Below, piece by piece: positions 12,096 through 15,745 of a stretch of 20,525 nucleotides of DNA (positions are counted from its first letter, which is position 1; the number at the start of each line of letters is the position of its first letter). The stretch is taken from the NCBI GenBank assembly GCA_021157815.1, contig JAGGVT010000070.1, positions 1 through 20,525 on the forward strand, given 5' to 3'. The position numbers and the translations under genes were made by a program. Source of the DNA: a bacterium (GTDB lineage Bacteria; JAJVIF01; JAGGVT01). The notes under the pieces are model-generated. The model searched no databases. It had not been told where the DNA came from and worked only from the letters and a program-made list of their open reading frames with translations.

Positions 12096-12123
12096 AAGCT
12101 GTTTTGAAATATATCCGGATTAC

Positions 12124-12379
12124 GTCATTCCCGCGAAATTCGCTGTTGAAAAATGGGTAGGTTTTAATGTAACCCGGAATGCCTTTATAAAAAAACATGA
12201 ATTAATTCTACAACGTTCGCAGGCATTCCGGGGTTGCGCATATCTACCCACTTCCCCGGCATGCCTGATTCACCTTATAGGTAATTGTTGATTTTATTCG
12301 GGACGGCATGACCGGGTTAGGGTATAAATAAGCTACGGTATAAACAAGCTTTTTCAACAGACTCTTTCGCGGGAATGAC
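12124..12379. repeat. Palindrome half-arms flanking an inserted 226-bp repeat
   Basis: GTCATTCCCGCGAAA at 12124-12138 and TTTCGCGGGAATGAC at 12365-12379 are the outer arms of the same palindromic family seen intact at 15519-15745. Between them lies a block whose ends read GCTGTTGAAAAA and TTTTTCAACAG. No clean direct duplication flanks it, since the left side is GAAA and the right side TTTC. This and the next two elements account for most of the 526-bp gap between lnt and pmbA; no gene is seen in it. Confidence 0.7.
12169..12360. repeat. Dispersed repeat, copy 1 (second copy at 17090-17265)
   Basis: Both copies begin GTAACCCGGAATGCC and end CTTTTTCAACAG, and they agree almost throughout. This copy has about 16 bp extra near the right end, from a local duplication of GGTATAAA. 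Each contains an internal inverted repeat, CCCGGAATGCC with GGCATTCCGGG. Confidence 0.9.
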
Positions 12380-12404
12380 GGAATCTTTGGTTGATTTCAA
12401 AAAA

Positions 12405-12570
12405 GGGAGCGCCGCAGTAGCCGGGACTGTTGAAAAACCTAATTATGTAGGGGCAGGTCTCTGTGCCTGCCTTTAGGTTTGCTGTAAATACAGGGCAGCC
12501 ACAGAGGACTGCCCCTACGGTTCGGTTTAAAACAAGCTTTTTCAACAGCCCCGTAGCCTGCGGCGCTCCC
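12405..12570. repeat. GC-rich palindrome split by an insertion
   Basis: GGGAGCGCCGCA at 12405-12416 and TGCGGCGCTCCC at 12559-12570 are perfect 12-bp complements. Removing the element at 12423-12552 and one copy of GTAGCC restores a hairpin with loop GTAGCC. Confidence 0.85.
12423..12552 (-). mobile_element. 130-bp non-autonomous inverted-repeat element, copy B
   Basis: The ends are GGGACTGTTGAAAAACC and GCTTTTTCAACAGCCCC, a 17-bp terminal inverted repeat with two mismatches. It is flanked by the direct repeat GTAGCC at 12417-12422 and 12553-12558. Its interior, read in reverse, matches copy A at 15600-15730, including the CCGTAGGGGCA and GCACAGAGACCT segments. It encodes no transposase. Confidence 0.8.
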
Positions 12571-12621
12571 GGCATTGGCTTTCCAGTTATTCAGAATTAA
12601 CTACTTCTTATTCAGAATCAA

Positions 12622-13935
12622 TTACTTCGCAGCTATCGAAACGCCATCCACTAAAATATACGGCGCTTTGAAAATCGGGAAGAATGGCGGCATGCCAAGC
12701 TGTTGGACATCTTTCGATACCGCGACAATTCCGGTCTTAAACAGGTCGAATACGTTTATCGACAACATTGCATCCTTAATCTGAGCGGTTTTCGCACCGC
12801 TTTTCATTGTGAAACTCATCGCAGGATTGCCGCTTACAATGCCGGAGTAGGGATTTGACATCATCGCGCCGATGATATCATCCACCCAGATATCAGCTTC
12901 CTTCATCATGTCGTCAAGTTCAGTTTCACCAGGGGTGAATTCGAAACCATATCCCGATGACATCGGCAAAGCTGCGAATCCGCTTTTAAATCCGTGTCCG
13001 GTTGGTTTCTGATTTGTCTGCACAGCTGAATCCAGTGAATGATAGAAAGATTCCAGAACACCCTTGTTGATAAAATCGGTAACGCCTGTTGGAGTGCCTT
13101 CGCTGTCGAACGCCATCCTGACAGGAGCGTCCTCGCCGGTTAGATTTGAGCGAATAGAGATTCTTTCATCAAACAGAGTCTCTCCGATTTTATCTGACCA
13201 CGGTGAAATGCCTTTTGCGACAGCGAATCCGTTAAGGCAGGAGAGGAATACATTTATCAGGTACATGATTCCTCTTGGGGAAAACATCACTTTGTACTTG
13301 CCTGGTTCGATATTCACAGTGTTCTGGCAGATTGCGAAATCCTCTTTAACCTTCTGCACAAGCTTGTCGAATCCTGTGTATTGGTCACCGATTCTAAAAT
13401 CATCTACCGAAAGAAAATTGCTCTCGGATTTGTAATCCAGCCCGCATTCCCAGATGATAGTCTTGACTTTTTGTGATAAATCCAAACCACTTGAGTTAAC
13501 AATACGTGATTCAGCAATTATCTTTTTTATCTCGCATTCTGCGAGAGCGCCATCGTGAACAGTCTTAAGTTCATTGACCACCTTTTCACACGTATCGATA
13601 ATAATTTCCTCTGTCAGATTGTCAAAATCGGTCGTGTCAATATCGAATGCTTTCGTGTCAGTCGATTCCGCGAAACTGAATTTGACTTCTTTTCCTTCTT
13701 TTGCCACATCCAGCGCGTAATCAACTATGCTGTCATCGTTCGGTTTACTCGATGATGAGAATCCGATTTTGCCATTCTTAATTACTCGCAGCGATGTTCC
13801 ACCCAAATCGGTTGTGTTGGAATCCTTAATCACGCTGTTTTCAAATGAGACGCTTGAGGATTTAACTCTCTCTGAGAAAACCTCAGCTGAATCCGCGCCT
13901 GCTTTTGCTTTATTTAGAATGTTGTCCATGGACAT
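12622..13935 (-). CDS. pmbA: TldE/PmbA, non-catalytic partner of the TldD/TldE protease
   Basis: The 437-residue protein has the PmbA/TldD fold but lacks the HExxxH metal motif of TldD, as is normal for the E subunit. Recognisable stretches include ISPWSDKIGETLFDERISI and NPYSGIVSGNPAMSFTMKSG near the C-terminus. With TldD it forms a metalloprotease that digests unfolded peptides and matures ribosomally made peptides such as microcin B17, and it acts on the CcdA antitoxin. ATG 13935 is chosen because GGAGGT ends 7 nt upstream; the ATG at 13953 would overlap tldD and has no such site. The ribosome site lies in the last codons of tldD and one nucleotide separates stop from start, so the two are translationally coupled. 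Confidence 0.93.
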   Translation of the reverse strand: MSMDNILNKAKAGADSAEVFSERVKSSSVSFENSVIKDSNTTDLGGTSLRVIKNGKIGFSSSSKPNDDSIVDYALDVAKEGKEVKFSFAESTDTKAFDIDTTDFDNLTEEIIIDTCEKVVNELKTVHDGALAECEIKKIIAESRIVNSSGLDLSQKVKTIIWECGLDYKSESNFLSVDDFRIGDQYTGFDKLVQKVKEDFAICQNTVNIEPGKYKVMFSPRGIMYLINVFLSCLNGFAVAKGISPWSDKIGETLFDERISIRSNLTGEDAPVRMAFDSEGTPTGVTDFINKGVLESFYHSLDSAVQTNQKPTGHGFKSGFAALPMSSGYGFEFTPGETELDDMMKEADIWVDDIIGAMMSNPYSGIVSGNPAMSFTMKSGAKTAQIKDAMLSINVFDLFKTGIVAVSKDVQQLGMPPFFPIFKAPYILVDGVSIAAK

Positions 13936-13936
13936 C

Positions 13937-15310
13937 TTATTTACCTCCAACAATTACATTTTGAATTCGAATATGAGGCGAACCTTCGCTGGTTGGAAGC
14001 GGCATCTGGCCTCGTTTACCGCATCCGCCGGGACCATCCTCCACAAAATAGTCGTTTCCAATCATGTCTATATTTTTAAGGGTTTCAAAAACATTTCCAG
14101 TGAGTGTTACATCACGAACCCGCTCAGCGATTTTCCCATCTCGAATCATAAAAGCATCAGCGGCTGTGAAAGTGAAAAGTTCACCGTTGGTCTGTCCGCC
14201 TCTTGAACTGATGCAGTACAGCCCTTTCTTTGTGTTTTTAACCATATCCTCAAACGGCACATCGCCAGTTTCAATCATTGTGGTTCTCATGCGAGGTATT
14301 GGCGGGAATTTGAAACTAATCGCACGCGCGTTGCCAGTGGCTTTTTCGCCCATCTTTGCCGCTGTTTCACGGGAGTGAAGCCGTCCGACCAGTTTACCCT
14401 CTCTAATTAGATGTGTTTTTTCAGTCGCGACACCCTCATCGTCATAGGGAAGATAACCGCGATTGCCCTTTTCCAATCCCGAATCGGCGACATTAAGGTG
14501 TTTCCCGCCGAAATCCCTGCCAAGTACCATTACTTTCTGAAGATTGGGATCCTCATAAACATTATCGCCTTCGCTTAGATGACCGAACGCCTCGTGGATA
14601 AAGACACCAGCCAGCATTGGGTCAAGGATAACGGTATATTGTCCGCCGTTGACAGATTCAGCATCCGCGATTGCAATTGAATCAGCAGCGATTTTTCTTA
14701 CTTCATCATCCAGATTCAAAACAACCGAGAAATCATCAGTTGAACCGCGTGTTGTGTACGCGAAGAAAGTTCCCGCGTCGATTCGCACAATTGCGGAAAT
14801 CGCGAAACCAAGGTCAACCGCATCACGAACAATGACAGTGCCTTCTGAATTCGCGTATGTCAGTTTTGTTTTCCTGTCGAAATAACGCGTGGATGTTGTT
14901 GTGATTCGTTCATCGAAATCGCGTGCCAGCTGGTTGTATCCACGCATTATTTCGATTTTCTTTTGTAGCGAAACATCGCCGGGGTTTGTTTTGACATCAA
15001 GCGGAATCTCAATGTCAACGACAGGAACATCCGCGAGTTTGAACGGCTCGTTGCGCCTGTCGCCCACGTTTTTCGCATGGCCGAATGCAATATCAAGTTT
15101 CGACTCAATTTCATCAAGGGAATTAAACGTTGTGAATCCCCACGCTCCCTTGTGAAGAACTCTGACATTTCCGCCAAAGCTGACATTTTCGCTGCAGTCC
15201 TCAAGGTCGGGGCCTGTGTATGTGATACGCGAGTTTGTAGTGTCCTCAAGGTGGATTTCAGCGTATTCAGCGTCTGTCTTTTTCAGTATGTCCTGAATTA
15301 TTTCTTTCAA
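13937..15310 (-). CDS. tldD: TldD metalloprotease subunit
   Basis: The 457-residue protein carries HEAFGH at 239-244, the HExxxH zinc motif of TldD, within GVFIHEAFGHLSEGD. Later conserved segments are GYLPYDDEGV, TGNARA and the CISSRGGQTNGELFTF region that includes the metal-ligand area. Length and order are typical. The start is TTG 15310, with GGAG 11 nt upstream; no ATG is available near it. It is the first gene of the pair with pmbA. No RiPP precursor is visible in the window, so a general peptide clean-up role is as likely as peptide maturation. Confidence 0.95.
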   Translation of the reverse strand: MKEIIQDILKKTDAEYAEIHLEDTTNSRITYTGPDLEDCSENVSFGGNVRVLHKGAWGFTTFNSLDEIESKLDIAFGHAKNVGDRRNEPFKLADVPVVDIEIPLDVKTNPGDVSLQKKIEIMRGYNQLARDFDERITTTSTRYFDRKTKLTYANSEGTVIVRDAVDLGFAISAIVRIDAGTFFAYTTRGSTDDFSVVLNLDDEVRKIAADSIAIADAESVNGGQYTVILDPMLAGVFIHEAFGHLSEGDNVYEDPNLQKVMVLGRDFGGKHLNVADSGLEKGNRGYLPYDDEGVATEKTHLIREGKLVGRLHSRETAAKMGEKATGNARAISFKFPPIPRMRTTMIETGDVPFEDMVKNTKKGLYCISSRGGQTNGELFTFTAADAFMIRDGKIAERVRDVTLTGNVFETLKNIDMIGNDYFVEDGPGGCGKRGQMPLPTSEGSPHIRIQNVIVGGK

Positions 15311-15400
15311 TTTTTCGCTAACTCCTGTGTTGGGTTTCCTTAATAAATCTGTAAGGGTGGTCGAGAAGTAATATGCTATTAGATAAGCAACACATTAAAG

Positions 15401-15459
15401 AGCCTGTCGGCAAAGTCAGTAACCCGTCATTCCTGCGAAAGAGCATGTCGGGAAAGTCA
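15401..15459. repeat. Two direct 18-bp repeats
   Basis: AGCCTGTCGGCAAAGTCA at 15401-15418 and AGCATGTCGGGAAAGTCA at 15442-15459 differ at two positions. Between them is GTCATTCCTGCGAAAG, a diverged arm of the palindrome family found intact just to the right. This and the following two elements fill most of the 462-bp gap between tldD and the MoxR gene; no gene is seen in it. Confidence 0.7.
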
Positions 15460-15518
15460 TTATAATGTGCAACTGACACCATTAAATTGTTCCTAAGTCA
15501 GACTAAGAATGATATTCC

Positions 15519-15745
15519 GTCATTCCCGCGAAAGCGGGAATCCATTTTTCTTTTATAGATGAGTTGGCATCTCTCATTTTTAATTGGATTCCCGCTTTCG
15601 GGGCTGTTGAAAAAGCCTATTATATCCCAGACCGTAGGGGCAACTCTCCGTGGTTGCCCTGTATTTATGCCAATATTTAGGGTAGGCACAGAGACCTCCC
15701 CCCTACATTCAGAGCTTTTTCAACAGCCCCTTTCGCGGGAATGAC
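15519..15745. repeat. Palindromic double-hairpin repeat, interrupted by an inserted element
   Basis: The left arm begins GTCATTCCCGCGAAAGCGGG at 15519. The right arm is its reverse complement, split into 15584-15599 and 15735-15745. Each arm is itself a hairpin around GAAA or TTTC. The arms enclose about 40 bp of AT-rich DNA. Removing the insertion at 15600-15730 and one TTTC restores the right arm exactly. Confidence 0.9.
15600..15730 (+). mobile_element. 131-bp non-autonomous inverted-repeat element, copy A
   Basis: The terminal inverted repeats are perfect: GGGGCTGTTGAAAAAGC at 15600-15616 and its complement at 15714-15730. TTTC flanks both sides (15596-15599 and 15731-15734) as a target duplication, and it is the loop of the palindrome it entered. 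The interior holds GGGCAAC with GTTGCCC and lacks a coding sequence of useful length. Copy B lies at 12423-12552 in the opposite orientation. Confidence 0.88.

Follow-up and report, generated by a model that had tools for sequence, protein, structure and literature searches.

Does the structure of a palindromic target decide where a small transposable element inserts, and how many base pairs are duplicated when it does so? The question is raised by two copies of a miniature element in the window, i.e., the whole 20,525-nucleotide stretch of bacterial DNA analyzed here, which lies on contig C162 of the source genome (a 3.2-Mb draft assembly in 221 contigs, ~91% complete). A first-pass annotation had placed each copy in the loop of an unrelated palindrome, the loop being duplicated on both sides, and had proposed an enzyme that recognizes hairpins.

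The coordinates given for both copies were exact. Element B (130 bp, 12423-12552, taken as the plus strand) lies between two copies of the 6-bp tip GTAGCC (12417-12422 and 12553-12558), themselves bounded by the left arm (GGGAGCGCCGCA, 12405-12416) and the right arm (TGCGGCGCTCCC, 12559-12570) of the target hairpin. Once rejoined, and using DNA folding parameters, this site forms a 13-pair hairpin of -20.0 kcal/mol; an unoccupied counterpart, whose loop is GGCTAC, is present at L106:539. Element A (131 bp, 15600-15730, minus strand relative to B) is flanked by two copies of the 4-bp tip TTTC (15596-15599 and 15731-15734). The left arm of its target (GGATTCCCGC, 15586-15595) reads (GG)ATTCCCGC and ends at 15595, the right arm (GCGGGAATGAC, 15735-15745) reads GCGGGAAT and starts at 15735, and the rejoined site folds into a stem of 8 pairs capped by a loop of 4 nt. 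An empty inverted partner of this hairpin, CGTCATTCCCGC-GAAA-GCGGGAATCCA, is located at 15518-15544. A and B are homologous and in opposite orientations, as annotated, and represent two subfamilies; B starts with GGGACTG, not with GGGGCTG as previously given. A third, older and worn element with CTGTTGAAAAA ends (226 bp, 12139-12364) is found directly upstream of the site taken by B. It is of the inverted-tip type described below, with GAAA on the left and TTTC on the right, and its flanks are CGTCATTCCCGCGAAA (12123-12138) and TTTCGCGGGAATGACGG (12365-12381), respectively.

Genome-wide, the end motif CTGTTGAAAAA occurs 219 times, compared to 4 times for the reversed control, and in 66 places both exact ends are present 88 to 112 bp apart. 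With up to 3 mismatches allowed, the core of subfamily A has 72 genomic matches and that of subfamily B has 15, giving a total of >85 copies of the miniature transposon. Copies were gathered by pattern and by region, and the DNA was read around the matches and a few divergent copies. The element has the attributes of a MITE: it is short (130 to 131 bp), carries terminal inverted repeats (ends GGG(G/A)CTGTTGAAAAA), encodes no gene, is present in many copies, and is flanked by direct target duplications. Many contigs, e.g., C7, C19, C103, C43, and C47, start or stop inside or beside an element; since the assembly breaks at copies, the count may be an underestimate. One 121-bp element (L113, C163:17590-17700) appears to be a B/A hybrid, suggesting recombination between the subfamilies.

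Hairpin-tip insertion was assessed in the 61 catalogued copies for which both flanks were readable. A copy was scored as positive if a tip of 4, 5, or 6 bp was present on both sides with no more than one mismatch, in direct or inverted orientation, together with complementarity at 5 or more of the next 8 positions, a criterion that was fixed once the flanks had been given an initial inspection. By this measure, 54 of the 61 copies were positive, compared to 1.1% of displaced flanks used as the null (binomial p = 6e-97), which strongly supports the hairpin-directed insertion proposed in the first-pass annotation. Direct tip duplications were found in 46 copies (31 of 4 bp, 11 of 5 bp, and 4 of 6 bp), while the remaining 8 had inverted tip copies between symmetric arms. 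The seven failures are mostly worn or chimeric sites, and examples such as L043, L076, L107, and L119 retain one or two recognizable hairpin halves; among the 61 copies, L008 has no hairpin at all. Most copies sit in hairpins, and the outcome that would have spoken against the proposal, i.e., a majority of copies in nonpalindromic DNA with a duplication of fixed length, was not obtained.

The tips themselves vary in sequence as well as in length. Those of 4 bp are mostly GAAA/TTTC, those of 5 bp include AGGAT, AAGAT, and TTCCA, and those of 6 bp include AAGGCT and GTAGCC. Only two palindrome families had been recognized previously; at least four unrelated types are in fact occupied (ATTCCCGC-GAAA, GCAGGC-AGGAT, GCGGAC-AAGGCT, GCCGCA-GTAGCC, and GGGAGCGCTGG variants), with no shared arm sequence, and subfamilies A and B use the same palindromes, each in several types. 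The sequence 130 to 230 bp outward is unrelated for 52 of 59 copies, indicating that most insertions are independent. Most sites fall in two or a few repeat families, which partly confounds duplication length with sequence family.

Folding of the rejoined flanks with DNA parameters refines how the duplication relates to the loop. The 4-bp duplication (GAAA/TTTC) is the 4-nt loop itself, whereas those of 5 and 6 bp correspond to a loop of 3 and 4 nt, respectively, plus its closing pair. The previous claim that the duplication follows the loop is hence upheld as regards the tracking of 4, 5, and 6 bp and corrected as regards the closing pair, which the two longer classes include. In d(GAAA) loops, the G and the last A can engage in a sheared pair. 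Were such a pair to form in GAAA here, a rule of "loop plus one closing pair" would be uniform across all three classes.

A related element of ~150 bp, with the same ends, is present in a second genome (G002), which belongs to the same class but to a different family and has 52 copies of the end motif. Among 15 elements read there, eight had an exact duplication of 5 bp and one of 4 bp, the stem showing 5 or more of 8 pairs in each case; two were of the inverted-tip type and four fitted poorly (L145, L150, L157, and L159). The palindromes differ from those of the source genome, e.g., CATGCGC-TTCCA-GCGCATG.

The position at the tip, the duplication of the tip, the tracking of 4, 5, and 6 bp, the breadth over palindromes and two genomes, and the agreement of the termini with those of an IS1182 remnant (see below) are direct observations. 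Taken together, we consider it probable that A and B are nonautonomous elements moved by an IS1182-family transposase and that the palindromes, at whose tips they almost always insert with duplication of exactly the tip, are recognized in hairpin or cruciform form. Both strands would be cut 5' of the tip, at the stem-loop junction or one base pair below it; each element end would then join at a cut, and gap filling would duplicate the tip. The pattern points to target shape, and not to a fixed enzyme ruler, as what sets the place and width of the cut.

An alternative that we regard as unlikely, albeit the most serious one, is linear recognition, in which a symmetric dimer would bind inverted half-sites (e.g., GC...GC) on duplex DNA with a spacing of 4 to 6 bp and no hairpin would form. 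Many DDE transposases prefer palindromic targets, which counts for this reading, as does the GC found directly outside the tip on both sides in most targets. However, 6 or more of 8 stem pairs are seen in only 6.3% of the 2,091 GC-N4..6-GC places in the DNA read, versus 40 of the 46 sites with direct duplications, so that something beyond a two-base GC half-site is needed to account for the targets; the AAGGCT and GTAGCC sites, moreover, lack the GC motif and keep the long complementarity, and a variable spacing would be unusual for a DDE enzyme.

Recognition of the REP-like repeat sequence itself, each repeat family having its own fixed duplication, would fit the concentration of sites in two families, and REP-specific IS elements such as IS1397, ISPsy8, and ISRm22 are well known (PMC1525189). 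That the same element uses at least four families with no common arm sequence, and other palindromes again in the second genome, makes this explanation quite improbable. The constancy of the position in every copy could also be accounted for if palindrome and element had spread together as a composite, the nesting reflecting a single ancestral event. We give this scarcely any credence in view of the many empty palindromes, the occurrence of A and B in several palindrome types, the duplication of the tip, and the mostly unrelated outer flanks.

Empty palindromes are indeed abundant, two types having 65 and 59 matches, respectively, when as many as 3 mismatches are allowed, and they often form closely spaced inverted pairs reminiscent of REPINs. 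Empty AGGAT palindromes, for instance, are seen in inverted pairs 48 bp apart (C61:1311/1359 and C175:21145/21193). By our count, 30 of 43 direct copies of the two main families have a partner hairpin within ~200 bp, compared to none of the eight inverted-tip copies (hand-worked hypergeometric probability, ~3e-4). Because the inverted-tip copies never have a partner hairpin, they are probably what remained after a hairpin pair collapsed: an element would have entered each of the two oppositely oriented hairpins, and the DNA in between would then have been lost through recombination of one element with the other, leaving inverted tips. Alternatively, these copies may stem from one replacement event, as proposed for IS1272.

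As to the enzyme, a search with PF13751 identified a 995-bp decayed element on contig C90 with the ends GGGGCTGTTGAAAAA and TTTCAACAGCCCC. Its first 24 bp are those of element A and its right end is identical over ~13 bp. The remnant matches PF13751, PF01609, and PF05598 (DDE_Tnp_1_6, DDE_Tnp_1, and DUF772, respectively), and the plasmid genes related to it carry the annotation of IS1182-family transposases. The miniature element hence shares its termini with a transposase-encoding IS1182-family element and, judging from these termini, the transposase of A and B is likely to belong to the IS1182 family, not to the IS3 family as implied by the earlier parallel with IS1397. A second transposase remnant is present on C56, and the reading frames of both remnants are broken. 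The junctions of the C90 remnant consist of REP-like hairpin halves with no matching duplication. The transposase gene with the same ends that the first-pass annotation called for was therefore recovered in decayed form only; an intact one was not found in the source genome (~91% complete, 221 contigs) or in the four genomes of the phylum examined. A scan of genome contigs for the transposase returned only Neisseria and Haemophilus proteins with 30 to 35% identity. Two potential full-length elements (C64:1142-2571 and C103:4084-5614) were discarded due to the presence of unrelated genes inside, as were, for want of such ends, a PF13751 protein on C155 and an intact IS1182-like protein of the second genome.

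Hairpin targeting by the IS1182 family is already known. IS1272 and TnSha1, both of this family, are reported to insert into hairpins with no primary sequence specificity and to delete or replace part or all of the hairpin with no target duplication (PMC5678879, PMC4923244). The family and the hairpin targets of no fixed sequence are as observed here; however, IS1272 and TnSha1 are autonomous and often located in terminators, whereas in our system the stem is kept and the tip duplicated. Replacement of the IS1272 kind is not what the copies display, 46 of 61 keeping both arms and duplicating the tip. A cited remark also has some IS1182 members targeting palindromes. In the literature covered, which was incomplete, no loop-duplicating MITEs or IS1182 loop targeting was found beyond IS1272/TnSha1, and a prior description is possible; a duplication confined to the tip and tracking the loop, made by a miniature element, appears to be new. 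The elements IS1397, ISKpn1, and ISPsy8 (IS3 family) and ISRm22 insert into REP palindromes, ISPsy8 and ISRm22 doing so at the symmetry axis with duplications of 3 and 6 bp, respectively (PMC1525189). These differ from the present element in having other transposases, a single repeat type each, and, where given, a fixed duplication, as opposed to the several families and the 4-, 5-, and 6-bp duplications found here.

A further parallel is provided by intact IS1182 elements in Providencia and Macrococcoides plasmids, which lie between two direct copies of one complete hairpin. Five different sites of this kind (L165, L166, L172, L175, and L176) have terminator-like duplications of 18 to 28 bp (AAGCCCCTAAATCAGGGGCTT, ATAAATCCCGCTAATAAGCGGGATTTTT, AAGCGACCAATATAGGTCGCTT, AGGCGGCCTAAGCCGCCT, and AGGCAACCTCTTGGTTGCCT). 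The duplication length likewise follows the hairpin, but the cuts are at its base instead of at its tip. The nearest intact relatives, alphaproteobacterial IS1182 elements (L161 to L164; ~42 to 56% identical over the aligned part), have ends resembling those of the miniature element (GGGCTGTTGAAAAA-like). Unlike the latter, they show a 5-bp duplication and no hairpin in all four examples (L161 by eye), indicating that not all members of the group track the loop. L161 to L163 sit in similar sequence around GGCAGCGCTGCC, which resembles an IS256-type transposase gene. In all, insertion by IS1182-family elements has at least four different results: duplication of the tip, as in the present element, duplication of the entire hairpin, loss of the hairpin, and a 5-bp duplication with no hairpin.

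Among classical DDE transposases, the number of base pairs duplicated at the target is taken as an almost invariant signature of each enzyme. In the two genomes described here, this number tracks the hairpin loop across dozens of insertions that appear to be independent, and among related elements it tracks the entire hairpin. A tentative, though by no means far-fetched, generalization is that DNA secondary structure sets the duplication in IS1182 elements, with cutting at the tip giving 4 to 6 bp, cutting at the base giving 18 to 28 bp, and removal of the hairpin occurring in IS1272. If true, duplication length would belong to the target instead of the transpososome, a possible reason for the variable duplications in the IS1182 family. 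The system makes it directly testable whether a transposase can read DNA shape, and the insertions constitute a natural record of palindromes that may extrude in living cells.

The sequence AAATGTCGAAAGTCGAG abuts half-palindromes at several element copies (L044, L107, L014, and L024), as if replacing one arm. In the window, positions 188-2320 encode a protein whose N terminus has a GmrSD domain and whose C terminus has a Schlafen AlbA_2 domain, possibly a defense gene.
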